Positions 2,219 through 18,372 of a stretch of DNA of 64,000 nucleotides are shown here, in pieces. Origin of the DNA: Komagataeibacter nataicola (lineage in GTDB: Bacteria; Pseudomonadota; Alphaproteobacteria; Acetobacterales; Acetobacteraceae); contig NZ_NIRT01000011.1 in the NCBI RefSeq assembly GCF_003207795.1, positions 1 through 64,000 of the forward strand. The letters are read 5' to 3'. Both the position numbers and the translations under genes were made by a program. Within the stretch, counting starts at the first letter, position 1, and each line of letters opens with the position of its first letter. The notes below the pieces were generated by a model. It made no database searches. It saw only the letters and a list, made by a program, of their open reading frames with translations, and was not told the origin of the DNA.

Positions 2219-2671
2219 TCAGTATTCCGGTTTTTCTCCTTTGGCGGGAACGGAGGTAGGCGTGCCCGGCGTGCCGGCATAGGTCAGCAGCACGACGGTG
2301 CGGGTATCACCCGTTTCCCCGCGATGCGTGTCATTTACGGATTCGGCAAACGCTTCGCCCTGATGGAAAGTTTCCGTCCTGCCACTATCACGATCATGAA
2401 TCGTCAGCTGCCCTTCCAGCACGTAGCCCGCGTTGGGCACGGGGTGGGTGTGCCATGGCAGCGCGGTATGGGCGGGAATGGTCAGGCGGATCATGGTCAG
2501 TTCCGGCCGCGTGGTGGGGTAGGGTGCATACGCCACGCCATTCCACGAATGATCGGCCTGTAACAGGATATCACGATGGCCGGAGGCAACCGTCTGGGCA
2601 TGGGCTGCCGTTGCGCCAAGGCTGGCAAGGCAGAGGCAGGCGGCGGCTACGCGGGCAGGGTGCAGGGGCAT
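2219..2671 (-). CDS. Secreted cupin-domain protein
   Basis: The protein has 150 residues with a signal peptide (about 1-26, ending A-H-A-Q) and a single cupin barrel. Cupin motif 1 is visible as H-T-A-L-P-W-H-T-H-P followed by an E in V-L-E-G-Q-L, which would bind a metal with the His residues. Motif 2 is weaker, around G-E-A-F-A-E-S-V-N-D-T-H. It should act in the periplasm; substrate unknown. It lies between the signalling gene and the aryl-polyene operon on the same strand, but 168 bases separate it from the operon's last gene, so co-transcription is uncertain. Confidence 0.75.
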   Translation of the reverse strand: MPLHPARVAAACLCLASLGATAAHAQTVASGHRDILLQADHSWNGVAYAPYPTTRPELTMIRLTIPAHTALPWHTHPVPNAGYVLEGQLTIHDRDSGRTETFHQGEAFAESVNDTHRGETGDTRTVVLLTYAGTPGTPTSVPAKGEKPEY

Positions 2672-2838
2672 GATGTGTCTTTCCGCTCAGGGTTCTCGCT
2701 CGTGTTCCTAGCGTTTCATGCCCCGCTGCGTTGCCACGCCGCGCGCTCACATGGCTTTGAGCGCTGATACTGTTGCAGCCTTGATGGTTGCCGTGGGGGC
2801 GGGCTGTGATGCGCCATCGGCCCGCGCCACCCCCCTTT

Positions 2839-4158
2839 TTACCGGGCTACGGGCGCCTCGGTGTTGCGCAGGTCGGCAAGGGCCTGCTGCACCCTGGCCT
2901 GCTGGGCTGCAATATAGTCATAGTAACGCTGGTAGAACGCCGGGAATGTTCCCGATGCCCGCGCAAGTGCCGGATGGTGCGCCTCCCACCATGAAAGCGG
3001 CTGGCGATCCTGCAGGATGCGGGCATAGCGGCTGGCAAAATATTCAAGGTTGGTGCGCAGGTCGTAATAATGCGCGTTCTTGAGGTAATGGGCGAAATTG
3101 CGGTGATACGACCCCAGCACCGGGTCATCGTAGAAGATGAGCGACAGCGAGGTGTTGTAAACCTCGTTGGGTGTGTGCACCGGCTCGGATTCCAGCAGCA
3201 CGCCCGGTTCATCGGCCAGCCAGTCATATTGCATGAAGGTCTGGTAGGTCAGCCTGTCGTTGAATATGGCCTGTATTTTTTCCACCGGCACCGCATCGGT
3301 GCGGTGGATCAGGTTGACGAGTTCATTCTTGGGCACGGGAAAGCTCAGCGCCGCAAGCATGACAAAGCGGTTGATCGGCCATTCGCTCCAGAATCCCGCC
3401 GCCGCCAGCGCATTATGGGTGAGGTGGTTGCAGTTGTCCTGCAACACGTTGGAATCATAGGTTTTGGGTCCGTTGCGATAGACGGCGTTGCGCTCGTTCA
3501 GAAAATCCATGATCTTGCGCATCTGTGGCTCGGTCACGGGCAGGCGGGCACAGAAGCGTGCGCGCCCCAGCGTGGTGGCGTAATCGGTGCCGACCGACAT
3601 TTCATATTTCCAGTCCACGGCGGACATGTTGGCAGGCTTGCCGTTGAACACCTCCTTGTGGAAGATCACGCCATCATAGATGCCGCGCCGCTTGGCTTCG
3701 TCCTGCGTGGCCACGTAGCCTGCGCGCGTCAGCCCCTGCCCGGGTGCGAGCGTGCCATCAAAGTAAAAAGCGCTGCTCTCCGCCCCGGTCCAGTTGGCGT
3801 TGCTGTAATGGGAGTTCATGCTGAAGCCCACGCCATCGGGCCGGTCGGCCGCGCGCGTGGCATCGCATTCGGTCAGCACGGGATAGCCCGCCTTGCGGTC
3901 AAGGCACACGCCGCCAAGGAACATGACGGCATGCCCGCCAGCACCCCCGCTGATATCCGCGCCAAAGCCGGGCTTTTTCGATATCTGCGAGACCGCGCAC
4001 AGCTCGGCATAATACGGAAAGGCCTGGTTGTACACATCGGGCCTGCTCACCTGGCCGGGATGATTGAAATTGGTCGGCGCGCAGGCGGCCAGCAGGGCCG
4101 TGCCTGCCAGCAGGCCGGCACAGGCCATGCGGCGCAAAAAATGGTGTGCCATGCCCAT
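2839..4158 (-). CDS. Lipoprotein, possible permuted papain-like hydrolase, last gene of the aryl-polyene operon
   Basis: The protein has 439 residues and a lipobox (L-L-A-A-C, Cys26), so it is probably anchored in an outer or inner membrane. I do not recognise the family firmly. A G-G-H-A-V-M-F-L-G-G segment (His76) and a later D-N-C-N-H-L-T-H-N-A-L segment (Cys243) have the His-before-Cys order of circularly permuted NlpC/P60-like or DUF4105-like domains; this is inference from motif shape only. Its ATG overlaps the stop of the halogenase-like gene (TAATG), which implies translational coupling and a role linked to polyene maturation or placement. It is much longer than the roughly 200-residue lipoproteins usual in aryl-polyene clusters. 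Confidence 0.7.
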   Translation of the reverse strand: MGMAHHFLRRMACAGLLAGTALLAACAPTNFNHPGQVSRPDVYNQAFPYYAELCAVSQISKKPGFGADISGGAGGHAVMFLGGVCLDRKAGYPVLTECDATRAADRPDGVGFSMNSHYSNANWTGAESSAFYFDGTLAPGQGLTRAGYVATQDEAKRRGIYDGVIFHKEVFNGKPANMSAVDWKYEMSVGTDYATTLGRARFCARLPVTEPQMRKIMDFLNERNAVYRNGPKTYDSNVLQDNCNHLTHNALAAAGFWSEWPINRFVMLAALSFPVPKNELVNLIHRTDAVPVEKIQAIFNDRLTYQTFMQYDWLADEPGVLLESEPVHTPNEVYNTSLSLIFYDDPVLGSYHRNFAHYLKNAHYYDLRTNLEYFASRYARILQDRQPLSWWEAHHPALARASGTFPAFYQRYYDYIAAQQARVQQALADLRNTEAPVAR

Positions 4159-5501
4159 TACCGCCGCCCCCGCTCAAGCTCGGGGCACGCTTGCGGCCTG
4201 TCGCGCTCCAGCCACAGTTTGGCCGAGACCAGATAATACGCCGCCTTGAACACGGCCATCGGCAGGCGCGTTTTCAGCTTGCCCCTGAAGTCGCCCGCAA
4301 GCAGCGAGATCACCCCATCGCGCATGCGGAACTCGTTGCGCGGGTTCATGAACAGATGGCGGATGACCGGCGTGTTGATGCGGTAGATCAGCCACGCGAC
4401 CCGCTTCATGGCCGCGCGGGTTTCGTGCTCCGCCCGGTGGGCGGCCCGCCGCCCCGCCCTCGGTGACTTGAGCCACGCATCCGCAACGGACACACCGCGC
4501 TCGGCACTGCTCATGGCCAGCAATACGCCCGAGGAAAACACCGGGTCGAGAAAGCCGAAGGCATCGCCAATCATGTAATAGCCTTCCCCCCATGACTGCC
4601 CGGCATGGTAGGAGTAATTGCCCGTGGCCGTTATGTCGCGCAGCGCGGTGGCGTTGCGCATGCGCGCGCTTACGCTCGGGCTGGCTTTGACCTTGCTCCA
4701 GAACAGGTCGGCCGGGCTGCCCTTGCGGCCTTCAAACGCCACGCGGTCACCCACAAAGCCCACGCTCATCAGCCCGTCGGGCAGCGGGATCATCCAGAAC
4801 CAGCCATTATCCACCAGATGGATGGAAATATAGCCCTCCCTGTCGCCATCGCGGAATTCGACACCGCTGAAATGGCCGAACAGGGCCGCGGTGGAATTGT
4901 ATTTGTTGCTGGTCTTGTTGCCCGCCCGGCTGGCGAGGAAGGTATCGCGCCCCGAGGCATCGAGTATGAAGCGCGGCGCGAAGGCCTGCTTCGCGCCATC
5001 CGGCCCTACGGCCTCGACATGGCCGCGCGCGCCGTCCTGCCCCGGTGTCACGCTGGTGACACGGGTGTTTTCCAGCAGCATGGCGCCTTCCTTGCCTGCG
5101 TGGCGGAACAGCATTTCATCGAATTCGGAGCGCACGACCTGATAGCTGTTGGTGTAGCTTTTGTCGATGCCATAGGCGAACGGAAAGGCGACGCTGCGCC
5201 CGGTCACGTCTGATACGAACTCCGCACCCGGCTTGAACACGCCGAACGCGCGCACCCGGTCCATCAGGCCAAGGCGTTCGAGAATGGGCAGGTTCCATGC
5301 CAGCAGGGATTCACCGATATGAAAACGCGGATGGCTGTCCTTTTCCACCACGATCACCCTGCGCCCCTGCCCGGCAAGCAGGGCGGCGGCGGTTGACCCC
5401 GCGGGGCCGCCGCCGATTACAAGGACATCGCATTCCTGCGCGGGGCTGCCGTCGGTGGGGGCCATCATGGGGTGTTCTTTCGTGTTGGGGTCCGGGGTCA
5501 T
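4158..5501 (-). CDS. FAD-dependent halogenase-like oxidoreductase of the aryl-polyene cluster
   Basis: The 447-residue flavoprotein has an N-terminal dinucleotide fold (G-G-G-P-A-G-S, 30-36) and the R-F-H-I-G-E-S-L-L segment (59-67) typical of PltA/CmlS-like flavin halogenases. Both diagnostic halogenase motifs are present: W-x-W-x-I-P as W-F-W-M-I-P (234-239) and F-x-x-P-x-x-S-x-G as F-L-D-P-V-F-S-S-G (317-325). Lys90 in F-K-P-G-A-E-F sits where the catalytic lysine is expected. The length matches single-chain pyrrole/phenol halogenases rather than tryptophan halogenases (about 530). Xanthomonadins are brominated aryl polyenes, so halogenating the aryl head group is the natural hypothesis. 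A desaturating or reducing flavoenzyme is the alternative. It overlaps the ketoreductase gene by 4 bases. A flavin reductase partner is not seen here. Confidence 0.8.
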   Translation of the reverse strand: MTPDPNTKEHPMMAPTDGSPAQECDVLVIGGGPAGSTAAALLAGQGRRVIVVEKDSHPRFHIGESLLAWNLPILERLGLMDRVRAFGVFKPGAEFVSDVTGRSVAFPFAYGIDKSYTNSYQVVRSEFDEMLFRHAGKEGAMLLENTRVTSVTPGQDGARGHVEAVGPDGAKQAFAPRFILDASGRDTFLASRAGNKTSNKYNSTAALFGHFSGVEFRDGDREGYISIHLVDNGWFWMIPLPDGLMSVGFVGDRVAFEGRKGSPADLFWSKVKASPSVSARMRNATALRDITATGNYSYHAGQSWGEGYYMIGDAFGFLDPVFSSGVLLAMSSAERGVSVADAWLKSPRAGRRAAHRAEHETRAAMKRVAWLIYRINTPVIRHLFMNPRNEFRMRDGVISLLAGDFRGKLKTRLPMAVFKAAYYLVSAKLWLERDRPQACPELERGRR

Positions 5502-6217
5502 GCCATGCCACCATTGATCGAGATGGTCTGGCCGTTGATGTAGGCGGCGCGGCCGGAGGTGAGGAAGGCGACAAGATCGGCCACTTCCTCCGGCTGGCCC
5601 GCGCGTTTTGCAGGCACGAGGTCGGCAATCTGGCGCGGGGTCATCACCGCGTCGACCGCGGGGGAGGCAATCACGCCCGGGGCCACCACATTGACCGTAA
5701 TGCCCCGGCTGGCCACCTCACGTGCCAGCGCGCGCGCCGCCCCGCTCAGTCCGGCCTTGGCCGCCGCGTAATTGGCCTGCCCCCGGTTGCCCATGATGGC
5801 CGCGACAGAGGAAATGCCCACGATCCGCCCCCAGCGCGTGCCGATCATGGGCAGCAGGAGCGGCTGGAGCGTGGCAAAGAACCCGTCAAGCGATACGGAC
5901 ACGACCGAGCGCCACTGCTGCGCGCTCATGCCCGCCATGGGGGCGTCATCATGAATGCCGGCGTTATGCACCACCACCTGCACCACGCCTTCCGACAGGA
6001 GGGTTTCGAGTGCGGTGGCCGTGGCGGCCATGTCCGACAGGTCGCACTGCCAGGCCTGCGCCGAGCCGCCGGTGGCGCGGATACCGGCGGCAATGGCGCG
6101 CGCTTTGTCGATGGCGTTATGCGCATGGACGATCACGTGCAGCCCGTCCTGTGCCAGGCGCTGGCAGATGGCCAGCCCCAGCGGGCTGGCCCCTCCGGTT
6201 ACGAGTGCGCGCTTCAT
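5498..6217 (-). CDS. 3-oxoacyl-ACP reductase (SDR) of the aryl-polyene cluster
   Basis: This 239-residue short-chain dehydrogenase reduces the beta-keto group formed after each condensation, using NADPH. The cofactor loop is T-G-G-A-S-P-L-G (7-14), and the catalytic Ser (136/137), Tyr150 and Lys154 are present in I-S-S and Y-A-A-A-K. The C-terminus N-G-Q-T-I-S-I-N-G-G matches FabG proteins. It corresponds to ApeQ of characterised aryl-polyene systems. Start and stop overlap its neighbours by 4 bases on both sides, so it is translated as part of the operon. Housekeeping FabG is the other possible role, but the context argues against it. Confidence 0.92.
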   Translation of the reverse strand: MKRALVTGGASPLGLAICQRLAQDGLHVIVHAHNAIDKARAIAAGIRATGGSAQAWQCDLSDMAATATALETLLSEGVVQVVVHNAGIHDDAPMAGMSAQQWRSVVSVSLDGFFATLQPLLLPMIGTRWGRIVGISSVAAIMGNRGQANYAAAKAGLSGAARALAREVASRGITVNVVAPGVIASPAVDAVMTPRQIADLVPAKRAGQPEEVADLVAFLTSGRAAYINGQTISINGGMA

Positions 6218-6657
6218 GTCTGTTGTTCCTGTGGTTGCAGCACGACAAAACCATGGCCCGTGACCAGCGCGGCCCCTGCTTCGCTTTCCACGCTAAAGTG
6301 GTAGCGCATGCCCTGTTCATCGGCCTGTTCGCAGGTTGCCCTGATGTGCAATGTGCCCCATTGCGGCTGGTCCAGCCGCCCCGGCGCAAGGCTGACCTGG
6401 CGCAGGGTGGTCAGGTAGCCGATGCGCGGCGTAGCCCCGTGGGTGCGGAGCCCTCCATGCAGGGCGGCGGCCTGCATGCCGATTTCAACCCCGCATACCA
6501 TGTCGAGCCGCCCGTTGCGGCGTAGCGGGTTGGCGGGATCGAGATGCGCGCGGGTGGTGCAGTGAATCGTCTGCGCATCATGTGCAATGACGCGATCGAG
6601 CAGGCAGCTTGCCCCGGCATGGGGCATGCGCGCCTCAATATCCGCCCGGCTCAGCAT
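6214..6657 (-). CDS. Hotdog-fold 3-hydroxyacyl-ACP dehydratase (ApeP-like)
   Basis: This 147-residue protein is of the FabA/FabZ-related hotdog type found in aryl-polyene clusters. The motif M-P-H-A-G-A-S-C-L-L-D (11-21) carries the putative catalytic His13, and the second active-site region is around C-G-V-E-I-G-M-Q-A. It would remove water from the 3-hydroxyacyl-ACP, leaving the trans double bonds that build the conjugated chain. In characterised systems ApeP works together with a second hotdog protein, ApeI; here that partner is the C-terminal domain of the adenylation fusion (12521-14146). It overlaps the chain-length-factor gene by 7 bases and the ketoreductase gene by 4. Confidence 0.88.
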   Translation of the reverse strand: MLSRADIEARMPHAGASCLLDRVIAHDAQTIHCTTRAHLDPANPLRRNGRLDMVCGVEIGMQAAALHGGLRTHGATPRIGYLTTLRQVSLAPGRLDQPQWGTLHIRATCEQADEQGMRYHFSVESEAGAALVTGHGFVVLQPQEQQT

Positions 6658-7460
6658 GGCGTTACCGTTATGGCGACATGCCCAACATCGCCTGCCACGC
6701 GGATTGCATGCGTGCCGCCTTTGGCGATGGCGGCCAGAAGCGGCAGGCAGCGGGCTGCCGGGTTATCATGGCACAGTACGCGCAGGGCTGTTGTAGCCTG
6801 TGCATCGGGCAGGGTCAGCGGGGTATCGGCGGTGTTCTGTGGCCCATAGTCTATATCCAGCATGGCCAGCGCGTGCGGCACGGGGTGGGGAGAGAGCACG
6901 AGCCCCACGCCAAACGTGCCCCGCGTGGCCCGTTTCTGGCCCAGTGGCTGCGGCATGGCCATGTCATAGACACACAGGAGCACGGTCCTGTCTTCCACCA
7001 CCGCCTCGGCTGCGGCCTGCAGCAGGGAAAAGCCCCAGCTCCAGTCATAGCCGCCAAAACAGGCCACGGGCTGGTGGGACTGGCTGCCGATGGTCCAGTA
7101 CCCCGCTGCCGCGTTATGCACCGAGTTGTGGAACTGCGTGGGTGATACGCCCGCTGCCGGGTCAGCCAGCGCCTGCAGGATGGTGTTGACCACCATGCCA
7201 TCGCCATTGGAGCTGCCAAACACGTTATGCACCTGTGCCGGGTCGCAGCCTGCCGCGGCACAGGCTTCGGCTGCCACGGCCATGGCCAGGCGCACGATGG
7301 GGCTGGTGCGCCGCCGTTCGTTGGGGGCCAGGGTGGTGGGCTGCGGCACGGTGCACGGCGTGGGCCGCCATGTGTCTTCCCCGCGCAGGATGGCGCGCGC
7401 CTGCTCCCACCCCGCCATGCCATCGGCCAGCACGGCCAGGCCCGAAATCCATACGCGCAT
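6651..7460 (-). CDS. Beta-ketoacyl synthase-like chain-length factor (ApeC-like)
   Basis: This 269-residue protein has the short ketosynthase fold typical of aryl-polyene chain-length factors (Ketoacyl-synt_2 type). It starts with V-W-I-S-G-L-A-V and contains F-G-S-S-N-G-D-G and Q-F-H-N-S-V-H-N-A-A-A-G-Y-W, where the active-site Cys of a true ketosynthase is missing. It should therefore be non-condensing and act as the partner of the downstream-paired ketosynthase, fixing polyene length. Its ATG overlaps the ketosynthase stop, as expected for a 1:1 heterodimer. Confidence 0.88.
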   Translation of the reverse strand: MRVWISGLAVLADGMAGWEQARAILRGEDTWRPTPCTVPQPTTLAPNERRRTSPIVRLAMAVAAEACAAAGCDPAQVHNVFGSSNGDGMVVNTILQALADPAAGVSPTQFHNSVHNAAAGYWTIGSQSHQPVACFGGYDWSWGFSLLQAAAEAVVEDRTVLLCVYDMAMPQPLGQKRATRGTFGVGLVLSPHPVPHALAMLDIDYGPQNTADTPLTLPDAQATTALRVLCHDNPAARCLPLLAAIAKGGTHAIRVAGDVGHVAITVTPC

Positions 7461-8674
7461 CAGGCGGCCTTTCCAAAAATCAGGCTGCAGTTCGCCCCGC
7501 CAAAGCCAAAGGCATTGCTCATGACATGGCGCACGGGCCGGGTGACGTTGCCGGTCAGCACATCGGTGTGGAAAGCGGGGTCCACGTCATCCACGCCAAG
7601 GCATCCGGGCATGAACCCGTGCTCAAGGCTCAGGGCGCAGATCATGGCCTCCAGCACGCCGCACGCACCCAGCGTATGCCCCGTCCAGCCCTTGGTGGAG
7701 GAACACGGAACATGCGCGCCAAACAGGGTGCTGACCGCCTTGTCCTCCATGGCATCATTGGCGCGGGTGCCGGTGCCGTGCAGGTTGATGTAATCAATGG
7801 CGTCCACCGGCAGGCGCGCGCTTTGCAGCGCACGCTGCATGGCCAGGACCGCGCCCGCGCCGTGGGGGTGCGGGGTGGACATGTGGTGCCCGTCGCTGCT
7901 CGCTCCGTAACCGAGCACGGAGGCGCGAAAGCCTGCCGGGGGGCCGCTCATGGTGCGGCCATCGGGGCGCTCAAGCAGCACGATGCCCGCTGCCTCCCCG
8001 ATCGAGATGCCATCGCGCCGTGCATCACACGGGCGGCAGCGTTCGGCCGAGACCAGTTCAAGGGCGGCAAAGCCGCGCAGCGTCATGCGGCACAGGCTGT
8101 CGGCTCCGCCTACCACTACCGCATCGCAGATACCCGCGTGGATCAGGTAGGCCGCATCCATGAACGCGCGCGAGGAGGATGCGCACGCCATCGACACGCA
8201 GAGTGCCGGGCCGCCAAGGTCGAGTGCCGCGCGCACATACCGCGCGAGCGAGAACAGGTCCTGCGTATGTTCATAATCAAAGCCTGCGGGCAGCCTGCCC
8301 TGCGCATCCATGGCGCAGAAGGCGTCCTCGCTGGCCAGCACGCCCGATGTGCTGGTGCCCATGACCACGCCAATGCGCCCCGCGCCATAATGCGCACGGG
8401 CTGCCATGATGGCATTGGCCACGCCATCGGTGCGCAGCGCCATGTCGATCAGGCGGTTGTTGCGGCAGTCATAGGATGCGAGGGCAGGGGGCAGGGCATG
8501 GGTTTCCACGCCTGCGACGCTGCCCGCGTAGCCGTGGGTGATGCCCGCAAAATCGCACGGCGCCAGCCCGGTGCGCCGGTGGCGCAGGGCGGCCAGCGTC
8601 TGTGCCACCCCAAGGCCTATGGCACTGATGCCGGTGCCCGCTGTCATGCGCAGGGCAGTCATGGTGGCGGTCAT
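7460..8674 (-). CDS. Beta-ketoacyl-ACP synthase II-type ketosynthase (ApeO-like)
   Basis: This 404-residue condensing enzyme has a complete Cys-His-His triad: Cys164 in S-M-A-C-A-S-S-S, His299 in N-L-H-G-T-G-T and His333 in T-G-H-T-L-G-A-C-G; Lys328 and the C-terminal N-A-F-G-F-G-G loop are also present. It would perform the decarboxylative Claisen condensations with malonyl-ACP that lengthen the aryl polyene. It is the only active ketosynthase in the cluster; characterised clusters have a second one (ApeR). It overlaps the exporter gene by 4 bases and the chain-length factor by a shared ATG/TGA. Confidence 0.93.
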   Translation of the reverse strand: MTATMTALRMTAGTGISAIGLGVAQTLAALRHRRTGLAPCDFAGITHGYAGSVAGVETHALPPALASYDCRNNRLIDMALRTDGVANAIMAARAHYGAGRIGVVMGTSTSGVLASEDAFCAMDAQGRLPAGFDYEHTQDLFSLARYVRAALDLGGPALCVSMACASSSRAFMDAAYLIHAGICDAVVVGGADSLCRMTLRGFAALELVSAERCRPCDARRDGISIGEAAGIVLLERPDGRTMSGPPAGFRASVLGYGASSDGHHMSTPHPHGAGAVLAMQRALQSARLPVDAIDYINLHGTGTRANDAMEDKAVSTLFGAHVPCSSTKGWTGHTLGACGVLEAMICALSLEHGFMPGCLGVDDVDPAFHTDVLTGNVTRPVRHVMSNAFGFGGANCSLIFGKAA

Positions 8675-11004
8675 GAACGGACCTGCCGCGCGGTGCCTGT
8701 TACGGGTGCCGCCATCATGAAACTGAACAGCATGGCCAGAAACGCTCCTATCGCGACGGTTGAGCCGATATCACGCAAAAGCGGGGTGCGGCAGCATGCC
8801 AGGATGCCAAAGGTCAGAAGGGTCATTGTATTGCAGGTCAGCAGGGTGCGTAAGGTGCGGGCGCGTTCGGCCCGGTCGATCTGCGGGCGGGCGAAGAACA
8901 GGGCGTAATCCAGCCCCACCCCCATCACGAACTGAAGCGAAATGACATGGATGAGCGACAGCCTGACCCCCAGCACCGCCATTGCCGCCATGATTACGAT
9001 GCCCGCACTCCCCACGGCCACGCACACGCGCGCCAGCCGCCGCACGTCGCGCAGGCCCAGCGCCAGCAGCGCCACCGCCATGATGGTGCCAGCCACCGTC
9101 CACCACAGGGCCTGGTGCATGTGGTCGGCCACGATGGCGTTTGTTTCGTGGCGCATGTTCAGCACCATGATGTCAGGCTGCGTTGCGAAGGCCGTGGCAA
9201 GGGCTGCCGTATCGCGCACGGTTTCGGGCAGAATGACGCCAAACCACTGGCCCTGGCGTGCGAACAGCAGCGGGGCCAGCCGGGTGGCAACGAGCGGGGA
9301 TGTCATGTCGTGCGGCTGTAGCGGCTCCATGGCGCGTGTTGCCGCTACATCTTGCACGAAGGGGGCAAAGGCATCGGGCTGGAAAGGCAGGTCGGCACGG
9401 GCGGCGTCAAGGCGGCGGGTCAGTTCCGCCGTATCGGGCAGGCTGGCGATCCGGGCGCGTTGCACGGTGATGCTGGGCAGGAAGCGGGCGGCGTATTCCG
9501 CATCGCCCATTACGCCACGCGCCTGAAGCGCGTCGAGCACGGGCATCAGCTGTCCCTCGCGTTCCAGCACGCCCTGCACGGTAGGCGCCTGCACGATAAT
9601 GGCCTGCCCCGCATCCGGCGCGCCAATTTCGTGGCGCAGTTCCGCATCAAGCGCGCGCAGCGCAGGCGGCACGGGGCTGAGGGAGGCGATATCCGTCTCG
9701 CGCCGGGGCGGATGGACCGCCAGCACGCCCGCGCCAATAACCGGCAGGATCAGGAACCACAGGCGGTAGCGCCGCCAGGATTCAATACGCAGGATGCCAT
9801 CATTATGGGTGGCGACACCGGGGGAAAGGTCGGCCTTCTGGATCAGGCGCGGCAGGAGCCACAGCGTCGTGGCTGCCGCACTCAGAAGCCCCGCAACCGA
9901 AAACACGCCAAGCTGCGCCAGCCCCGGCAGGCCACAGAACACCATGCCCGTCAGCCCCAGGCACGCGCTGGTTACCGCAAGCCGCAGGCTGGTGCCAATC
10001 CGGCGCAGGGGGGCATCCGCCGCCTCGCCCTGGTCGCGGTGGCCGATCAGCAGCACGGGGTAGTCGAGCGAGACGCCAAGCATGGTCATGCCAAAACCGA
10101 ACGAGATGCCATGCACGTAGCCAAACAGCACCCGCACCACCACCATCGCCACACTGAGCGACAGCGCGAACGCAATGCCCATGGCCGCCAGCACCCATGG
10201 CGAGCGGAAGCGCCAGATCAGCACCGCCGTGACCAGCAGCATCGAGGCGGTGGACAGGAACTCCACATCCGCCTGCATGGCGTGCGAGGCTTTCAGCGCA
10301 AACACCGCCGGCCCGGACATGAGCAGGTGCATGCCCGGCTGCGCCGCAGCCGCGTAGGCTGCACTGATCGCGGCCTGCACCTGCTTTTGCGCATACAGGT
10401 CCATGCCGTTGGCGCGGGTGCGCAGCAGGATCAGCGCGCGGTCGCGCTCGGGCGCGAACCATACGCCATCAATGCTGCGCCCGTGACTGTGCGGCGCCCA
10501 GGCCCGCAGCAGCGCCATGAAGGCGCCGGTCGGATCGGCCAGGCCATAATGCTCGGCCAGTGGCTCGGCGGAGGATTCCATCATGTCCAGCACGGCCTGC
10601 ATGTCATCATGCAGCGCATCGACCGAAAAATCCCGCGCGGATGCCGGGGGGGCGAGCAGGTAGCGGTGGCTGAACAGGAAGGCTTCGTCCGCGCCATCGG
10701 GCGGGCGGCTGCCATTGGTCACGGTTACGAACAGCCCGCTGGCGGCGAGGCTGTCCGCCATGGTCTGGCTGGCACGCGCCAGCACATCGGGCGCCGCCCC
10801 CTCGATTGCGGCCAGAATGACCGTTGCGGCACTGCCGGACTGGACCTCGCGCATGATGAAGCGCGTATTGTCCGTGCGGCCTGCAGGCAGGAAGCCCGCC
10901 ATGTCGGTGCGCAGCGGTATGGCCACAAACACGCACGCCGCCATTACCAGCGAGAGCAGCAGGCCGATGGCCAGCGGCTTTATGGAGCGCGGGCGCGCCG
11001 TCAT
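8671..11004 (-). CDS. MMPL/RND-type exporter of the aryl-polyene cluster
   Basis: The 777-residue inner-membrane protein has the MMPL layout: one N-terminal helix (about 10-30), a periplasmic loop, five to six helices (about 240-390), a second loop, and a C-terminal helix block (about 630-770). It resembles the exporter (ApeM-like) that moves finished aryl-polyene lipids toward the outer membrane. Its start overlaps the LolA-like gene by 4 bases and its stop overlaps the ketosynthase gene by 4, so assembly and export are translated together. Confidence 0.9.
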   Translation of the reverse strand: MTARPRSIKPLAIGLLLSLVMAACVFVAIPLRTDMAGFLPAGRTDNTRFIMREVQSGSAATVILAAIEGAAPDVLARASQTMADSLAASGLFVTVTNGSRPPDGADEAFLFSHRYLLAPPASARDFSVDALHDDMQAVLDMMESSAEPLAEHYGLADPTGAFMALLRAWAPHSHGRSIDGVWFAPERDRALILLRTRANGMDLYAQKQVQAAISAAYAAAAQPGMHLLMSGPAVFALKASHAMQADVEFLSTASMLLVTAVLIWRFRSPWVLAAMGIAFALSLSVAMVVVRVLFGYVHGISFGFGMTMLGVSLDYPVLLIGHRDQGEAADAPLRRIGTSLRLAVTSACLGLTGMVFCGLPGLAQLGVFSVAGLLSAAATTLWLLPRLIQKADLSPGVATHNDGILRIESWRRYRLWFLILPVIGAGVLAVHPPRRETDIASLSPVPPALRALDAELRHEIGAPDAGQAIIVQAPTVQGVLEREGQLMPVLDALQARGVMGDAEYAARFLPSITVQRARIASLPDTAELTRRLDAARADLPFQPDAFAPFVQDVAATRAMEPLQPHDMTSPLVATRLAPLLFARQGQWFGVILPETVRDTAALATAFATQPDIMVLNMRHETNAIVADHMHQALWWTVAGTIMAVALLALGLRDVRRLARVCVAVGSAGIVIMAAMAVLGVRLSLIHVISLQFVMGVGLDYALFFARPQIDRAERARTLRTLLTCNTMTLLTFGILACCRTPLLRDIGSTVAIGAFLAMLFSFMMAAPVTGTARQVRS

Positions 11005-11609
11005 GTGGACGGGTCGATGCGCATGACCTGTGTATCCCCATTGGCCTGGACCACGCGGATCACCGTCATGGCGTTGTTCTGGCCGTCAATCGTGATCGTG
11101 CGCACGTAGCGCGCCATGGCGGGCAGGGGAGTGAGCTGTAGCGTCCAGTGCGCCACGTCGCCCTGTGCCGCCAGCGTATAGTCATGGCGCAGGGCGGTGA
11201 TGTCGCCATCAAGTGGTGCGCGGATGGCCTCGACAAGGGCGGCAAGCTGCGCATGGTGCGACAGGTCCACCACGCGGGCCGGTCCCTGCCCACGGGCCAG
11301 GCTCAGGGTCGTGCCCTGCACGATCAGGGTCTCGGGCCGTGGCGCGTGCGTGATCTTCTGCACATGGCCCGGCCGGGCATAGATCAGTTCCCCCGATGAA
11401 CTGAGGTCATGCGTCAGGGCCGCGATATGCCTGCTTTCGTGAAAGGTATTGTGCCGCGCGGGCACCATGCCGATACGGGCAATGATGGTGTCGGCCAGGT
11501 CGGGCGCGGGTGGCTGCACGCCCTGCGCGTGCGCGCTTCGCGCCACCCAGCACATGGACAGCGCCAGCAGGGCGGGCACAAGGCTGCGGGCGCGTTTATG
11601 GTCCATCAT
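11001..11609 (-). CDS. LolA-like periplasmic carrier protein of the aryl-polyene cluster
   Basis: The protein has 201-202 residues with a signal peptide (about 1-28, ending A-H-A-Q), then a beta-rich domain with L-I-V-Q-G-T-T-L-S-L and a C-terminal I-D-G-Q-N-N-A-M-T-V-I-R typical of outer-membrane lipoprotein carrier proteins. LolA homologues in aryl-polyene clusters are thought to ferry the lipid product across the periplasm between the MMPL exporter and the outer membrane. Two adjacent ATGs (11609, 11606) are possible starts. It overlaps the acyltransferase gene by 14 bases and the exporter by 4. Confidence 0.85.
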   Translation of the reverse strand: MMDHKRARSLVPALLALSMCWVARSAHAQGVQPPAPDLADTIIARIGMVPARHNTFHESRHIAALTHDLSSSGELIYARPGHVQKITHAPRPETLIVQGTTLSLARGQGPARVVDLSHHAQLAALVEAIRAPLDGDITALRHDYTLAAQGDVAHWTLQLTPLPAMARYVRTITIDGQNNAMTVIRVVQANGDTQVMRIDPST

Positions 11610-12537
11610 GGTTCTCCCCGTGTTTTCCCACCTGAGGGGCAACCCATACATCATGGAAATTGAACCAGTTATAGGGATGGGCGCGGCACAGCCTTTCCAT
11701 CCAGCGGGCGTAATGCCCCATCCACATGGCGAGCCCCTGCGCGCGCTGCCTGCGTTCGATGCTGATTTTTTCCGCCAGCGGCTCGAAGCGCACCGTATAC
11801 TGCCTGTAACCCGTGCGCACCCCGCTGAACAGGATGACCGGCACATCCAGCATGCTGGCAACCAGTAGCGGCCCGGCGGGAAAGGCCGCCATGCCACCCA
11901 GGAACGGCGTGAGCACGGATTTTTCATGCCCCGGCGCCCTGTCGCCCAGCATGCCCACCAGTTCATTGCGCGCGAGACTTTCCTGCACGCGGATCATGGC
12001 GTCAGGCTCGCCGATATCAATGATATTGCGGGAAAATTCGGGGGCAAGCTGCTCCAGCAGGCGCGTGGGCGCGCCCGCGTTGCGCCGGAACATGAGCACC
12101 CTGACCGGAAAGGGCGACATGCGGCCCACGCTGCGCAATGCCTCGAACGAGCCGATATGCGCGCCAAGCAGAATGCACCCGCGCCCGCCCGCCATGACCG
12201 CATGCACGCAGTCCAGCCCGTCGATGTCGATTTTGTAGCCCCTGTAACGGCCCGACAGGAAAAAGACCCGGTCCAGTATGGCCGCGGCAAAGGTATGGAA
12301 ATGCCGTGCCACATCCACCCCGCGCACGGGCCGGTCGAGCACGCGGGCCAGGTACTGGCGTGATGCCCGGCGTGCCTGCCGCGCCGTGAGCAGGAAATAC
12401 AGCGTGATGAACGGCAGGATGGCCTCGCCAAACGGGCGGCCCACCCGCAGCGTCAGCCAGATCATGAAGCGCGACAGCGAGGCTATGCCGCGCTCGGGCC
12501 TGACCCAGCCGGGCGCGTGCTTACGCATGGGCGTCAT
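11596..12537 (-). CDS. LpxL/HtrB-family acyltransferase of the aryl-polyene cluster
   Basis: This 313-residue membrane-associated acyltransferase has the H-x4-E catalytic pair (His127 and Glu132 in H-I-G-S-F-E) and a hydrophobic N-terminal segment (about 25-50). Family members transfer acyl chains to lipid A precursors; homologues in aryl-polyene clusters probably join the polyene acyl group to a lipid or sugar carrier. It starts inside the end of the adenylation fusion (17-base overlap) and ends inside the LolA-like gene. Confidence 0.87.
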   Translation of the reverse strand: MTPMRKHAPGWVRPERGIASLSRFMIWLTLRVGRPFGEAILPFITLYFLLTARQARRASRQYLARVLDRPVRGVDVARHFHTFAAAILDRVFFLSGRYRGYKIDIDGLDCVHAVMAGGRGCILLGAHIGSFEALRSVGRMSPFPVRVLMFRRNAGAPTRLLEQLAPEFSRNIIDIGEPDAMIRVQESLARNELVGMLGDRAPGHEKSVLTPFLGGMAAFPAGPLLVASMLDVPVILFSGVRTGYRQYTVRFEPLAEKISIERRQRAQGLAMWMGHYARWMERLCRAHPYNWFNFHDVWVAPQVGKHGENHDGP

Positions 12538-14146
12538 TACGCAGCCGCCCCTTCGCCACGACCTGCATGCCCACCGTGCAGGTAAACGCCAGCGGCTGCG
12601 TTGTGTGTGTTACGCGCACGGTATCGCCCGGCCGCACGGGGTGCAGGAACTTGATCTGTTCAAGCCGGGCGGGCGCGACCCCCATGAGGCCAAAGACCTC
12701 GCTCAGCACCACTGCGCCGGGCACGATGGGGCAGCCGGGAAAATGCCCGGCAAGGGCGGGGTGGTCTGGCGCTATGCGGAAGCACCCCGCATCCTGCGCC
12801 GTTGTGGCCGGGGGTGGTTCATGCACAAGGGCCAGCAGGGCCGCGCGGGTCAGTTTGCCCATTTCGTTGCGCGGCAGCGCGGCCACGCGCACGACCCGGC
12901 GTGGCAGGAAGGCGGGCGGCACGCGCATGCGCAGTTCGGCCAGGATGTCGGGGGCGGGGCGGGTCGGCGCCACTACCACAACCTCCATCCGGCCCACAGG
13001 CTGGCCCGGCGCGGCATCGGGCGCGGGCGCAATGAAGGTGCCATCCTCAACGCCTTGTATGCCCAGCAGGATGGCGTTCAGCCCGGCAAGGGAGGTGCGC
13101 TGCCCCGCGATCTTGATGATGTCGGTCATGCGGCCTTCCAGCCTGAAGGTATCGGGCGTGAGGGGTGTTATGGCATCGGCCACGACGTGGCTCGGGGCGC
13201 CTGGCGCATGAATGCTGGCCGTGCCATCGAGGCGGGGGTGCAGGCTGATGCCGGAGTGCAGGCGCCACGCCTGTGCTGCGGTGGTGCGGCGCGTGGCGAT
13301 GGAGCCGGTTTCAGTGCTGCCATAAATCTCGAAAACGGGGGCATGCCAGCAGCGTTCCGCCATTTCGGCGGTGGCGGCATCGAGGGGAGCGGTGGCGGAT
13401 ATGACCCGCGCTATCGGCGGCAGGGGCGTGTGGTCGCTCAGGAACGTGCGGATGTGCAGTGGCGTGGTGAGCAGGATGCATGGCTGCGGCCCCTGCTCGA
13501 GGCGGGCGCGGATATCGGCGGGGAACAGGGCAGGCCCCGTGGTGCTGATGCAGCCCGTGACAAGGGGCTGGATGACCGTCGTCTCGAAACCATACATGTG
13601 ATAGGGCGGCACCGTACCCACGATGGTGGCAACACTGCCCGGCACGGGCGTGAACAGCCCTACGCTCGCCAGTGCCCGCCGGGTCAGCCCGCCCCATGTC
13701 TTGGCATGGGCGACCGGCGTGCCGGTGCTGCCCGATGTCAGGATATGCGCCACGACCTGCGTTGCGGCAATGTCCGGGTTGGCGGCGGTGCCCGCCCCCT
13801 CGGCCGACAGGGCGGAGAGGCGGATGACCGGGGTGGCCGCCGGGAGCGGACAGGGCGGCAGGTCGGCATCGGTTACGATGGCCGCATCGGGGTAGAGGGC
13901 CAGCAGGTGCGCAAGCGGGCCGGCGGCCCTGCTGCCCGGCAGCACGCTGTACTGCCCGCGCAGCACGGCGGCGCAGAAGGCGGCGGTAAAATACAGCCTG
14001 TCGCGGCACAGGTTGATGATGGGCCGGGGCGGCAGTGTTGCGGCAAGGGCATGGGCTGCATGGAGCACGTCGTTGCCGGTTATGAGGCGTTCCGGTGTTC
14101 TGAACAGGGGGGCTGCCGGATGGCCGAGCAGGGGAAACGCATGCAT
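12521..14146 (-). CDS. Aryl-acid AMP ligase fused to a hotdog dehydratase domain
   Basis: The 541-residue protein joins two enzymes that are often separate in aryl-polyene clusters. Residues about 1-440 form an acyl-adenylating enzyme: T-S-G-S-T-G-T-P (137-144), Y-G-S-T-E-T-G (275-281), the D-I-I-K-I-A-G-Q-R hinge (342-350) and the catalytic Lys431 in N-E-M-G-K-L. It would activate an aryl acid such as 4-hydroxybenzoate and load it on the ACP (ApeH-like). Residues about 455-541 are a FabZ-like hotdog domain with H-F-P-G-C-P-I-V-P-G (468-477), His468 being catalytic; this matches ApeI, partner of ApeP. It begins 9 bases after the ACP gene. Confidence 0.9.
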   Translation of the reverse strand: MHAFPLLGHPAAPLFRTPERLITGNDVLHAAHALAATLPPRPIINLCRDRLYFTAAFCAAVLRGQYSVLPGSRAAGPLAHLLALYPDAAIVTDADLPPCPLPAATPVIRLSALSAEGAGTAANPDIAATQVVAHILTSGSTGTPVAHAKTWGGLTRRALASVGLFTPVPGSVATIVGTVPPYHMYGFETTVIQPLVTGCISTTGPALFPADIRARLEQGPQPCILLTTPLHIRTFLSDHTPLPPIARVISATAPLDAATAEMAERCWHAPVFEIYGSTETGSIATRRTTAAQAWRLHSGISLHPRLDGTASIHAPGAPSHVVADAITPLTPDTFRLEGRMTDIIKIAGQRTSLAGLNAILLGIQGVEDGTFIAPAPDAAPGQPVGRMEVVVVAPTRPAPDILAELRMRVPPAFLPRRVVRVAALPRNEMGKLTRAALLALVHEPPPATTAQDAGCFRIAPDHPALAGHFPGCPIVPGAVVLSEVFGLMGVAPARLEQIKFLHPVRPGDTVRVTHTTQPLAFTCTVGMQVVAKGRLRNDAHA

Positions 14147-14155
14147 GCTGATGGC

Positions 14156-14428
14156 TTAGGACGGGGAATGCGCTGCTATGTAATGGGTCAGGCTGCGCAC
14201 GGAGCGGAAAATATCTACTTTATCGGCATTGTCCGAACGGAGTTCCACCCCGTACTGCCGCTTGATGGCCAGCGAGAGTTCCAGCGCGTCAATGGAGTCC
14301 AGGCCAAGGCCATCGCCAAACAGGGGAGCATCCATCTCGATTGTGGAGACGGGCATATCCAGTTGCAGGGTCTCGACAATAAGGGTCGCTACTTCGGTTT
14401 CTGATGGAGATGGAGGGTTTTCCGCCAC
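14156..14428 (-). CDS. Acyl carrier protein of the aryl-polyene cluster
   Basis: The 90-residue acidic helical protein carries the phosphopantetheine site D-S-I-D-A-L-E, with Ser45 as the attachment point. It is the first gene of the long minus-strand operon and is followed 9 bases later by the adenylation fusion that presumably loads it. Characterised aryl-polyene clusters have two ACPs (ApeE and ApeF); only this one is found here. Confidence 0.92.
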   Translation of the reverse strand: MAENPPSPSETEVATLIVETLQLDMPVSTIEMDAPLFGDGLGLDSIDALELSLAIKRQYGVELRSDNADKVDIFRSVRSLTHYIAAHSPS

Positions 14429-14595
14429 TAATTTATGCCTATTATTTACATTAATATCAGAAGGTTTCTGGCCGCGAGCATACCGCGCCCCATAGCTTGT
14501 AACAATGCTGAATCATTATGTAACAGCGGTCGGGGTTTTTGCATCGCTCTTCAGTGTGATGCCGGTATGGTGGGTTCTTACGGTCAGGCGGGTTC
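14429..14595. promoter_or_regulatory. Divergent intergenic region presumed to hold the aryl-polyene promoters
   Basis: These 167 bases separate the ACP gene (minus) from the membrane-protein gene (plus). The part near the ACP is clearly AT-richer than the genes and contains TATTATTTACATTAATATC. No operator palindrome stands out. Both transcripts should start here (inference). Confidence 0.4.
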
Positions 14596-15207
14596 ATGCG
14601 TTTAACTGGCATTATCATGCTGTTTGTGGCGAGTGTAGGGGCGCATGTTCTCTCGGGCATGGGGCTTGTCGCACCTGCCGCGCGCTGGCTGGTGACGGGG
14701 CAGGCCATGGCGGGCTGCGTGCTGCTTGCGGCATCTGGCATTCGCCATCAGGTGGCATGGGGGGTGTGCCTTGCAGCCCTTGCTGCACCTGGATACGTGC
14801 TGCCCCCCGGTTTTGTGCTGCTGGCTGATTCCGTGGTGCTGTACGGCGTGCTTCAGGGCGCGTTGCTGCTGCTGTTCGCCCGTACCCTGCGGCCCGGGCA
14901 TGAACCGCTTGTCACCATGCTGGCACGCCAGGTGCACGGCACGCTACGGCCCGATGTGCTGCTTTATACCCGCCAGCTGACATGGGCGTGGAGCTTTTTC
15001 TTTGCGGTGCAGCTGCTTCTGCCCGCCCTCCTTGCGCTGGTGGGGCCTGCGGGGTGGTGGCGTGCCGTGCTGCATGGGGCGAGCATGCCGCTTGTGCTGG
15101 TCATGTTCGGGGTTGAAGCCGGTGTGCGGCGCTGGCGCATCCGCAATTTCGATCATGCCTCGATCATGGATTCCATCAGGGCCTTCAACAACCGCGTGCG
15201 CGGATGA
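14596..15207 (+). CDS. Multi-pass membrane protein associated with aryl-polyene clusters (COG4648-like)
   Basis: The 203-residue protein has about six hydrophobic segments and a basic, polar C-terminus (R-R-W-R-I-R-N-F). Similar small inner-membrane proteins accompany aryl-polyene clusters; their function is not established. It is the only cluster gene on the plus strand and sits between the two minus-strand transcription units. Its stop lies 12 bases from the convergent glycosyltransferase stop. Confidence 0.75.
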   Translation: MRLTGIIMLFVASVGAHVLSGMGLVAPAARWLVTGQAMAGCVLLAASGIRHQVAWGVCLAALAAPGYVLPPGFVLLADSVVLYGVLQGALLLLFARTLRPGHEPLVTMLARQVHGTLRPDVLLYTRQLTWAWSFFFAVQLLLPALLALVGPAGWWRAVLHGASMPLVLVMFGVEAGVRRWRIRNFDHASIMDSIRAFNNRVRG

Positions 15208-15219
15208 GGGGGCACCCTT

Positions 15220-15984
15220 TCACACCCGTGCGACGCGCCTGCGCAGGGGGCGCAGCAGCAGGCGGGCCAGAAAAATGATCATGAGCCGCACATGCATGCG
15301 GATCAGCAGCAGGTTGTCGCGCAGGTAATGGAAGTGGGAGATGCCGCCTTCATCGCGGCTGAGGTAGCGCACGGGTGAGTCAAGATTGACACAGGCCAGC
15401 CCGCGCCAGCACAGGCGCACGGCGGCCTCGGGGTCAAAATCATAGCGGCGCATGCCCGATACCGTGTCCATGACCGCCAGCAGGTCGGCCGCCGGATAGA
15501 CCCGGAAGCCGAACAGGGAATCCCCGATGTCACTGCCCGGCGTTTCCAGCCGCGCCCACCAGTTGGAAACCCGCCGCCCCTGCACCCGCAGGGCGGGCGC
15601 GTCATCGGCAAAGACCGGCCGCCCCAGGATCAGGGCCGCCGGTGTGCTGCGTGAGGCGGCGATGAAGCGCTCGATCTGCTCGGCAGGGTGCTGCCCGTCG
15701 GCATCCATGGTCAGGATATGGGTGTAACCGCGCGTGCGCGCCCAGCGCAGCCCGTGATGTATGGCCGCCCCCTTGCCCCGGTTGCGCGGCAGGCGTGTGA
15801 CTGACAGGCCGGGATGGGTGGCCCGCAGGGCGGCCAGGCTGTCGGCGCTGCCATCGGTGCTGCCATCGACCACAACCAGCACATCGGGCCAGAAGGCCAG
15901 CGCCCCGGCCACCGTGCGCGCCAGGACCGGGCCGGTATTGTAGGAGGGAATCACGACAAGATGGCGCAGGGCGGCCGGGTTCAT
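15220..15984 (-). CDS. Family 2 glycosyltransferase of the aryl-polyene cluster
   Basis: The 254-residue protein has a GT-A fold: V-I-P-S-Y-N-T at the N-terminus, V-V-V-D-G-S-T-D-G-S (about 36-45) and the metal-binding D-A-D-G-Q-H (about 94-99). The C-terminal part, with Y-L-R-D-N-L-L-L-I and a hydrophobic helix, suggests membrane association. It resembles polyprenyl-phosphate glycosyltransferases and may add a sugar to the aryl-polyene lipid or its carrier. Its start overlaps the PlsC-like gene by 4 bases. Confidence 0.88.
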   Translation of the reverse strand: MNPAALRHLVVIPSYNTGPVLARTVAGALAFWPDVLVVVDGSTDGSADSLAALRATHPGLSVTRLPRNRGKGAAIHHGLRWARTRGYTHILTMDADGQHPAEQIERFIAASRSTPAALILGRPVFADDAPALRVQGRRVSNWWARLETPGSDIGDSLFGFRVYPAADLLAVMDTVSGMRRYDFDPEAAVRLCWRGLACVNLDSPVRYLSRDEGGISHFHYLRDNLLLIRMHVRLMIIFLARLLLRPLRRRVARV

Positions 15985-16745
15985 GCCGTGCCTCCATGGG
16001 GGGGCTGCCGGGCAAGGGCATCGGTCAGCCAGGCCTGCACCTGGCCTGCCAGTTCGCGTGATGTCATGGCGTGGGTGGCCTGCGGGGGCAGGGTCTCGCC
16101 GCGCGTGACGGTATAGGTAATGGGCAGCGCCGGCCTGTGCAGCAGGGAAGCGCCCTTGCGCAGGTAGGGCGAGGTGGTGGTAATGAGCATTGTCTGCACC
16201 GTACAGCCCGCCTGCATGGCAATGGCGGCAAAGGCGGGGTGAAAGGCATCATTCACCTGCGCCCGGCCCGAGCGTGTGCCCTCGGGAAACAGCAGGATGG
16301 GCTGGCCTGCGCGCGCATGCGCAACCGTGCTGCGGATCAGGCGCAGCGGCGTGTCGTTGCCGGGATATTGCGCAAGCCGCAGCGCCGCGCCGTAAAACGG
16401 ATGATCGAGCAGGGACTGCTTGGTCACGCACACAAGATCGGGCAGGTAGGCGGTGAACAGCATGGCATCCATCAGCGATGGATGGTTGGCCACCACCACG
16501 GTGTTGCGGATATGGGCGAGTGCTTTCAGGTCACGCGGGTTGCACCGGATCCCGCCCAGCCCACGCAGCACGTTGAGCGAAAGCCGCGACATGACCCAGA
16601 CCCACCGCCGCCCGACCATGCCCCGCCACCTGCGCGGCACGACAGGGGCCAGCAGCAGTGCAACAGTATTGAATACGGCAAAGGCCCAGACAGCATAGAC
16701 AAGGCCGATGCAGAAAATGATTCTATGCCAGCCTCTCCGCGCCAT
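15981..16745 (-). CDS. PlsC-family 1-acylglycerol-3-phosphate acyltransferase-like protein
   Basis: The 254-residue protein has an N-terminal membrane segment (about 10-35), the H-x4-D motif in N-H-P-S-L-M-D (His88, Asp93) and the second block F-P-E-G-T-R-S. Enzymes of this family acylate lysophospholipids. In aryl-polyene clusters a PlsC-like gene is common and probably attaches the polyene acyl group to a glycerol or sugar lipid. It is the first gene of a two-gene minus-strand unit with the glycosyltransferase. The 216 bases upstream to the tRNA hold no recognisable gene and should contain its promoter. Confidence 0.88.
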   Translation of the reverse strand: MARRGWHRIIFCIGLVYAVWAFAVFNTVALLLAPVVPRRWRGMVGRRWVWVMSRLSLNVLRGLGGIRCNPRDLKALAHIRNTVVVANHPSLMDAMLFTAYLPDLVCVTKQSLLDHPFYGAALRLAQYPGNDTPLRLIRSTVAHARAGQPILLFPEGTRSGRAQVNDAFHPAFAAIAMQAGCTVQTMLITTTSPYLRKGASLLHRPALPITYTVTRGETLPPQATHAMTSRELAGQVQAWLTDALARQPPHGGTA

Positions 16746-16961
16746 CTTGCCTATTCATATCCATAAAACCGAACCGGGTTGCCACGACAGGGCAGGCACC
16801 TGATAGCCCATTATGGCGGAAGGCGGCGCAACTGCCTAATAGGCCCCGCATCGCCCCCGGTCAGGGCTGATACGCCCGGCAATACCTGCGGCGGAAAAAC
16901 ACAAAAAGCGCCGGCGCGCCAGCGTTGTGATGCAGATTGCAGCCATTTTGAAAAAGGAGAA

Positions 16962-17046
16962 TGGTGGAGGGAGTTGGATTCGAACCAACGTAGGCATAAC
17001 CAGCGGATTTACAGTCCGCCCCCTTTAGCCACTCGGGCATCCCTCC
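16962..17046 (-). tRNA. tRNA-Tyr (GTA)
   Basis: The minus strand folds as a type II tRNA of 85 bases: acceptor GGAGGGA pairs with TCCCTCC, the encoded CCA end is present, the T loop contains GGTTCGAATCC, and there is a long variable arm as in bacterial tRNA-Tyr. The anticodon loop CTGTAAA gives GTA (bases 17010-17012 of the window). No integrase or duplicated tRNA end is seen nearby. Confidence 0.97.
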
Positions 17047-17163
17047 AGGTTGGGCGGGTAGTTACGGGGTATGAGGGGGTAAGTCAAGGGTATGGATGAA
17101 AAATTTGCGACAATTTTCGTTTGGGGGAATGACGCCGCTGCCGGTTGGGCTTAAAGAGCGATC

Positions 17164-17994: not shown

Positions 17995-18003
17995 ACCCGC
18001 GCA

Positions 18004-18370: not shown

Positions 18371-18372
18371 GG

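Follow-up and report, generated by a model that had tools for sequence, protein, structure and literature searches.

A XanB1/ArcA-type halogenase-like flavoenzyme in the aryl-polyene gene cluster of Komagataeibacter nataicola

The first 64,000 nucleotides of contig NZ_NIRT01000011.1 of Komagataeibacter nataicola, a member of the Acetobacteraceae (assembly GCF_003207795.1; this stretch is hereafter the window), contain a complete aryl-polyene (APE) gene cluster at positions 2839-16745. Within it lies the gene for a 447-residue flavoprotein, P0001, which all the sequence and fold tests performed assign to the reduced flavin adenine dinucleotide (FADH2)-dependent halogenase superfamily (CmlS/PltA group) and which has putative halogenating activity. 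A halogenase-like enzyme of this kind is the rule in the APE clusters of Acetobacteraceae, and the window cluster represents a known type in its ordinary form. The best explanation, held with slightly more confidence than doubt, is a complete APE pathway in which P0001 would halogenate the carrier-bound aryl starter.

Motifs and Predicted Fold of the Flavoprotein

P0001, referred to below with its homologs as the flavin-dependent halogenase-like enzyme (FDH), contains GGGPAGS at residues 30-36, Lys90, WFWMIP at 234-239, and FLDPVFSSG at 317-325, the last three exactly where a sequence-only reading of the window had placed them. The motif reading covered 30 of the 57 family matches, and in all 30 rows the three Gly residues of the GxGxxG motif (G30, G32, and G35), the WFWxIP form of WxWxIP, the FxxPxxSxG pattern, and the catalytic tunnel-end Lys90 are kept. 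FxxPxxSxG is a halogenase motif. Alignment of Lys90 had been proposed as a check on the enzyme, and this residue aligns with a Lys of five solved chains (CndH, ChlB4, Mpy16, 3nix, and FasV), with which all four motifs are in register. The Pfam model Trp_halogenase matches P0001 at 88.5 bits, and the solved-structure sequences that match it best are CndH, ChlB4, Mpy16, 3nix, FasV, PltA, RadH, and CmlS. The predicted model (pLDDT, the predicted local distance difference test, 85) has the fold of the FADH2-dependent halogenase superfamily. Among the best 50 of 1000 structural matches, 3nix (45.4), FasV (44.6), Bmp2 (44), ChlB4 (43), PltA (43), and Mpy16 (42) rank highest, followed by RadH and CndH (39), aromatic hydroxylases (36 or lower), and CmlS (35).

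The sequence-only reading had held that a grouping with geranylgeranyl-reductase-type or desaturase flavoproteins would speak against a halogenase. No such grouping occurred, as sequence, fold, and trees all point to halogenases. The geranylgeranyl reductase superfamily model TIGR02032 does match P0001 at 105.5 bits, but this falls under its curated cut-off of 158.8 and compares with 170 bits for the CmlS model, while no geranylgeranyl reductase appears among the best 50 of 1000 structural matches. That P0001 is a flavoprotein of this type unrelated to halogenation was thus rejected on model scores and predicted fold, and is considered very improbable.

Co-occurrence With Aryl-Polyene Genes

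Among 150 family genomes, the FDH is present in 54 (E ≤ 1e-30) and the APE-type ketosynthase (KS) in 58 (E ≤ 1e-60, a threshold chosen after a gap in the match listing was seen). Both occur together in 52 genomes, the FDH only in two, the KS only in six, and neither in 90 (Fisher p 7e-31). A KS piece lies at a contig edge in G017, one of the two genomes with the FDH only, and G060, of the same genus as the window genome, has neither gene. The APE ketosynthase was also found in 11 of 11 named-locus genomes with an FDH that were searched, and in the window both genes belong to the same operon. XanB1/ArcA-type flavoproteins, as this group is called below, are thus almost always found together with APE ketosynthases in Acetobacteraceae. 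They are present in many Beta- and Gammaproteobacteria as well, and P0001 is taken to be dedicated to the APE pathway.

APE clusters have been reported in 44% of acidophilic and 29% of acetous species in a survey of 141 type strains, which names a "probable halogenase" among the APE-linked genes of Acetobacteraceae (Guzman and Vilcinskas 2021, PMC8776678). The sequence-only reading had proposed a halogenated aryl-polyene lipid that would be unexpected in an acetic-acid-type bacterium. The halogenase-like enzyme in an APE cluster stands, whereas the surprise is unwarranted given this survey and the genome counts, with the FDH in 52 of 58 APE-positive family genomes and in 2 of the 92 others.

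Acetobacteraceae-type FDHs with 52-56% identity also occur in Burkholderia sp. Ax-1719 (L076, 10001-11221) and B. ambifaria (L058). No APE gene lies inside these two fetched loci, and both genomes carry an APE ketosynthase elsewhere, that of strain Ax-1719 being 50% identical to the window's. The Ax-1719 FDH falls within the Acetobacteraceae clade in the trees, from which L058 was excluded. As judged from these sequences, the FDH alone was likely acquired by horizontal transfer, an event that would support a dedicated role.

FDH matches were returned for 74 plasmid records, and the three examined come from Roseomonas haemaphysalidis, Azospirillum ramasamyi, and Caballeronia insecticola. APE clusters with an FDH are plasmid-borne in R. 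haemaphysalidis (p546-1, L191) and A. ramasamyi (L192); the FDH of p546-1 is annotated as "tryptophan 7-halogenase," and the C. insecticola plasmid record carries no annotation. Two family genomes contain FDH matches in two pieces, perhaps decaying copies (G006:C20 63222-64459 and G088:C1 5444959-5446225), and G088 holds another, single-piece match at C1:32409-33674. No FDH relative was found in viral contigs by the patterns used.

Three Lineages of Aryl-Polyene-Linked Flavoproteins

Three APE-linked flavoprotein lineages were seen: the window lineage (XanB1/ArcA-type), a flexirubin-like lineage, and an H-type lineage. Window-type FDHs form one clade with those of Betaproteobacteria, Rhodanobacteraceae, Nitrospira, and others, with support of 97/93 in a 38-row tree (fragment L058 and the distant L081 left out), 100/99 in a 26-row tree, and 92/82 in a 27-row tree that includes the H-type, the latter two being thinned from sets of 54 and 46 rows, respectively. 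The trees do not support any particular branching order among the clades, and 3nix, CndH, and FasV sit on long branches. P0001 falls in the XanB1/ArcA-type clade as defined in the present analysis, which takes its name from gene order (synteny), the trees containing no named Xanthomonas or Azoarcus sequence.

The flexirubin-like lineage comprises ten Xanthomonadales-order loci (L146-L153, L160, and L161) with a KS nearby, is sister to 3nix of Cytophaga hutchinsonii, and has GNAGEF where the window enzyme has GDAFGF. In L149, the sole locus of this lineage checked, an aromatic amino acid lyase gene adjoins the LolA gene. The flexirubin-type flavoproteins of Xanthomonadales were considered as the xanthomonadin enzyme and ruled out, since published gene order puts XanB1 in the window lineage.

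H-type enzymes have 534-541 residues (three copies read), and the five that were aligned share the motifs WxWLIP and FLDPFYSPG. Their genes adjoin those of the KS and chain-length factor (CLF) in six loci, with a GT2 glycosyltransferase gene between in four of the six. H-type halogenase-like genes were located as follows:

L194, 11284-12906: H-type halogenase-like gene
L195, 5929-7548: H-type halogenase-like gene
L196, 4986-6587: H-type halogenase-like gene
L159, 6478-7917: H-type halogenase-like gene
L054, 6027-7544: H-type halogenase-like gene
L117, 2-652: H-type halogenase-like gene

A weaker H-type match (33%) was seen in L080. In three genomes (G261, G221, and G175), an H-type gene lies approximately 6-10 kb from a window-type FDH gene. 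A second, KS-linked halogenase was not found in the window genome, where the sole PF04820 gene at E 1e-5 is the XanB1-type FDH (matched in two pieces), though the H-type genes of G261, G221, and G175 themselves match PF04820 weakly (E 5e-8 to 8e-9) and a diverged copy could be missed. H-type queries against the window likewise match the FDH only (E 3e-17).

In the Xanthomonadales order, all 22 genomes with a window-type FDH (E < 1e-90 to P0001; any match at 1e-25 occurs in 40 of 121 genomes) contain a XanB2-type chorismatase (PF21168), within 2 kb in 16 of them. Because this chorismatase is found in 90 of the 121 genomes anyway, the full count says little, and the argument depends on the 16 genomes in which the two genes are adjacent. 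Seven of the 22 genomes are represented in the trees, by six fetched loci and L042 (= G154). The gene row of G261 reads adenosine monophosphate (AMP) ligase, chorismatase, window-type FDH, and acyl carrier protein (ACP), its likeness to Xanthomonas being one of gene order alone.

Organization of the Cluster

The cluster is read from 16745 down to 2839 and consists of two minus-strand groups, PlsC-GT2 and ACP-ligase/dehydratase (DH)-LpxL-LolA-MMPL-KS-CLF-DH-ketoreductase (KR)-FDH-lipoprotein, separated by one divergent ApeG-like gene:

15981-16745, minus: PlsC-type acyltransferase, ApeD-like, 254 residues (PF01553, 56 bits; 29% to E. coli ApeD)
15220-15984, minus: GT2 glycosyltransferase resembling the N-terminal half of ApeJ, 254 residues (PF00535; 38% to ApeJ)
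14596-15207, plus: divergent membrane protein, ApeG-like, 203 residues (weak similarity to E. coli ApeG, E 5e-4)
14156-14428, minus: ACP, GTG start, DSI site at Ser45 (PF00550; 51% to E. coli ApeE)
12521-14146, minus: AMP-forming aryl-ACP ligase, ApeH-like, with a fused C-terminal dehydratase-like domain, 541 residues (PF00501)
11596-12537, minus: LpxL-type acyltransferase resembling the C-terminal half of ApeJ, 313 residues (PF03279; 30% to ApeJ)
11001-11606, minus: LolA-like periplasmic chaperone, 201 residues from the likely start (PF19574, 60 bits)
8671-11004, minus: MMPL/RND exporter, ApeM-like, 777 residues (PF03176; 24% to ApeM)
7460-8674, minus: KS, ApeO-like, 404 residues, with Cys164, His299, and His333 (family models; 39% to ApeO)
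6651-7460, minus: CLF, ApeC-like, 269 residues (PF13723; homologs in APE clusters)
6214-6657, minus: DH, 147 residues (no Pfam match; same-place homologs in APE clusters, 40% in Acidomonas and Roseomonas)
5498-6217, minus: KR, ApeQ-like, 239 residues (PF13561; 42% to ApeQ)
4158-5501, minus: XanB1/ArcA-type flavin-dependent halogenase-like enzyme (P0001), 447 residues
2839-4158, minus: lipoprotein with a predicted permuted papain-like domain, 439 residues

KS, CLF, KR, DH, ACP, aryl-ACP ligase, LolA-like and MMPL proteins, and acyl- and glycosyltransferases are therefore all present. The cluster boundaries and gene set of the sequence-only reading were correct, being backed by APE homologs and by Pfam and NCBIfam matches (AMP-ligase, KS, CLF, KR, MMPL, LolA-like, LpxL-like acyltransferase, ACP, GT2, and PlsC-like acyltransferase). 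Its three KS residues were found as claimed, and its DH, which has no Pfam match, is borne out by the same-place homologs. The ten genes 3′ of the ACP gene are separated by +9 to -17 bases, with overlaps at nine of the ten junctions, and this tight spacing argues that their grouping is not due to chance.

Four features extend that reading: the divergent ApeG-like gene, the last-gene lipoprotein, the C-terminal dehydratase-like domain of the ligase, and the single ACP. The ApeG-like protein gives no match in the Pfam search and has a 48% homolog in the Acidomonas methanolica cluster. The additional ligase domain is FabZ-like at residues 458-515 (a weak match) and corresponds to a separate 95-residue gene on the R. 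haemaphysalidis plasmid. Since the open reading frame at 14457-14741, adjacent to the ACP gene, has no Pfam match, 14156-14428 is the sole ACP found. The guanine-cytosine content is 66.0% in the cluster and 62.6% in positions 17100-64000. A tRNA-Tyr gene (16962-17046, minus) directly adjoins the cluster edge and is the sole match in an Rfam scan of positions 1-20000.

The lipoprotein gene is the last of the cluster, its start overlapping the FDH stop by one base. Its product belongs to no named family, and His76 and Cys243 are invariant in an alignment of 22 of the 26 matches. A comparison of the resulting profile with solved structures by sequence found none (best E 0.81). The lipoprotein occurs in 25 of the 150 family genomes, 24 of which are APE-positive by ketosynthase. 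Its identification as ApeA was rejected, as BLAST gave no match between it and E. coli ApeA at E 0.05. It may supply a step otherwise lacking from the pathway, by which the pigment is attached or positioned in the cell envelope.

Source of the Aromatic Starter

No enzyme of the starter route was identified in the window genome among those searched. The XanB2-type chorismatase (PF21168) gave no match, and all 14 control genomes of the same search were also blank; this enzyme is found in six of the 150 family genomes, four of them FDH-positive. UbiC (PF04345) and PF01947 gave no match either, with positive controls in E. coli and in three genomes, respectively. The sole aromatic amino acid lyase of the genome has the Ser-His of histidine lyase, and we take it to be a HutH-like histidine lyase preceded by an open reading frame for urocanase. 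It was therefore set aside as a starter source.

Proposed Function and Alternatives

In the favored pathway, the aryl-ACP ligase would load an aromatic acid on the ACP, KS/CLF, KR, and DH would extend this aryl starter to the polyene, the acyl- and glycosyltransferases would mount the polyene on a lipid, and the MMPL and LolA-like proteins would carry the product to the outer membrane. A general flavin reductase would supply FADH2, which would react with O2 and halide at the FAD of P0001, so that hypohalous acid (HOX) could pass the WFWMIP wall to Lys90 and halogenate the aryl head group, still carrier-bound, at the starter stage. We infer the halogenation by P0001 along with its halide, position, carrier-bound substrate, and reductase. 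Halogenation is favored because every tested catalytic feature is kept over distances where a useless feature should drift, and because the usual place of the FDH gene beside those for chorismatase, ACP, and ligase suggests action on a carrier-bound starter. PltA, Mpy16, ChlB4, and Bmp2 are halogenases of carrier-bound substrates.

Several points weigh against this proposal. The best NCBIfam score of P0001, 170 bits for the CmlS model, is far below the equivalog cut-off of 900. QhpG, a related hydroxylase, has two Trp residues (181 and 183) in the corresponding channel, and thus the Trp motif is no proof of halogenation. XanB1 is labeled a "putative reductase/halogenase" (PMC3838355), and clusters of the xanthomonadin type have, next to KS/CLF, a further halogenase-like gene that was not found in the window genome, so that xanthomonadin bromination need not be the work of XanB1. 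The pigment of Azoarcus sp. BH72, arcuflavin (C41H52O4), is non-brominated in its authors' interpretation (PMC3949708). The window genome is nearer to Azoarcus than to Xanthomonas, and possession of the FDH gene is not in itself a sign that the pigment is halogenated.

It is possible, if clearly less probable than halogenation of the starter, that the enzyme retains a halogenase architecture and spares the pigment, being a flavin monooxygenase or oxidoreductase whose substrate is the aryl head group or a pathway intermediate. This would account for a halogen-free arcuflavin despite arcA (PMC3949708) and for the secondary citation of XanB1 as required for xanthomonadin biosynthesis, which exceeds what a tailoring halogenase would need (PMC3838355). 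P0001 also scores near the hydroxylase model QhpG (NF049967, 147 bits) and the LodB model (NF038171, 112 bits), in both cases under the cut-off (240 and 400, respectively), and 52 of the 58 APE genomes of the family retain the FDH, yet 50 of the 54 FDH-positive genomes have no XanB2-type chorismatase match. Such a role is opposed by the conservation of Lys90, WxWxIP, and FxxPxxSxG across large distances and by the nearest characterized folds, which are halogenases rather than hydroxylases among the best 50 of 1000 structural matches. In addition, Lysobacter and E. coli make APEs without such an enzyme, and the FDH is thus not needed for the polyene itself.

A true halogenase that is silent or halide-limited, acting when bromide is supplied and leaving the natural pigment mostly halogen-free, is improbable. 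Halide limitation would reconcile intact catalytic residues with a halogen-free arcuflavin, and Xanthomonas pigments are themselves mixed, with 0-2 Br (PMC3691225).

The pigment-sparing alternative can be extended to the XanB1/ArcA-type flavoproteins at large, which would keep the full halogenase signature and catalyze a different reaction, with the aryl head group or a cryptic halogenated intermediate as substrate, a proposal regarded as tentative. If this is true, a large enzyme family is wrongly annotated by the standard halogenase motifs, and xanthomonadins are in fact brominated by a separate, KS-linked enzyme. Of the two bromines of xanthomonadin I, one is placed on the ring and the other on the chain, positions that could not be confirmed here. 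In a milder form of the proposal, XanB1 would act at the starter stage to halogenate the ring, and the chain end would be halogenated by the KS-linked enzyme, which gives one enzyme for each of the two bromines. Few kinds of bacterial gene cluster are as widespread as APE clusters. Assigning their "halogenases" to lineages, with the window's in the XanB1/ArcA type, opens two questions to testing: the identity of the enzyme responsible for xanthomonadin bromination, and how far halogenase motifs are trustworthy there. An acetic-acid-family strain with the XanB1 type, in which a second halogenase was not found, offers a clean test case.

Comparison With Known Systems

The E. coli CFT073 ape cluster has counterparts for 11 of the 14 window proteins (E < 0.01), but not for the dehydratase, the FDH, or the lipoprotein; none of its 18 genes encodes a halogenase or matches the 439-residue lipoprotein. 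Conversely, no counterpart was seen in the window cluster for the second ACP, thioesterase, methyltransferase, and second KS of CFT073. In the trees, from which PltA and Bmp2 were left out, ChlB4 and Mpy16 form a clade separate from the window FDHs.

The published Xanthomonas pig cluster has the order ACP, XanB1, XanB2, and AMP-ligase, plus a separate "H = halogenase" (PMC3838355), and its XanB1 position is matched by synteny in the G261 row of the window clade. Xanthomonas pigments from clusters with a halogenase gene are mixtures that include the dibrominated xanthomonadin I, whereas Lysobacter, without a halogenase, yields a pigment without a bromine isotope pattern (PMC3691225). The window cluster was rejected as a xanthomonadin cluster in the strict sense, since neither a XanB2-type chorismatase nor a KS-linked halogenase was found in the window genome.

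In Azoarcus sp. BH72, arcA is the sole "halogenase" in the published gene table (PMC3949708). Its arcA-arcE order is repeated in Zoogloea oleivorans (L061) and an Azonexus metagenome-assembled genome (L047) as FDH-chorismatase-MipA-PlsC-GT2, and the FDHs of both fall in the window clade. Azoarcus additionally has dialkylresorcinol (DAR) genes and a chorismatase, and provides the sole published chemistry found for an arcA-only cluster among open-licence PMC papers (PMC3949708). The window genome resembles Azoarcus more than Xanthomonas. The Acetobacteraceae APE clusters already surveyed, with R. haemaphysalidis p546-1 as a named example, come from the same family and have the same kind of gene set as the window; in the available part of that survey, the halogenase is left untyped and the neighboring lipoprotein unmentioned (PMC8776678), and the present analysis assigns the window's enzyme to the XanB1/ArcA-type lineage.

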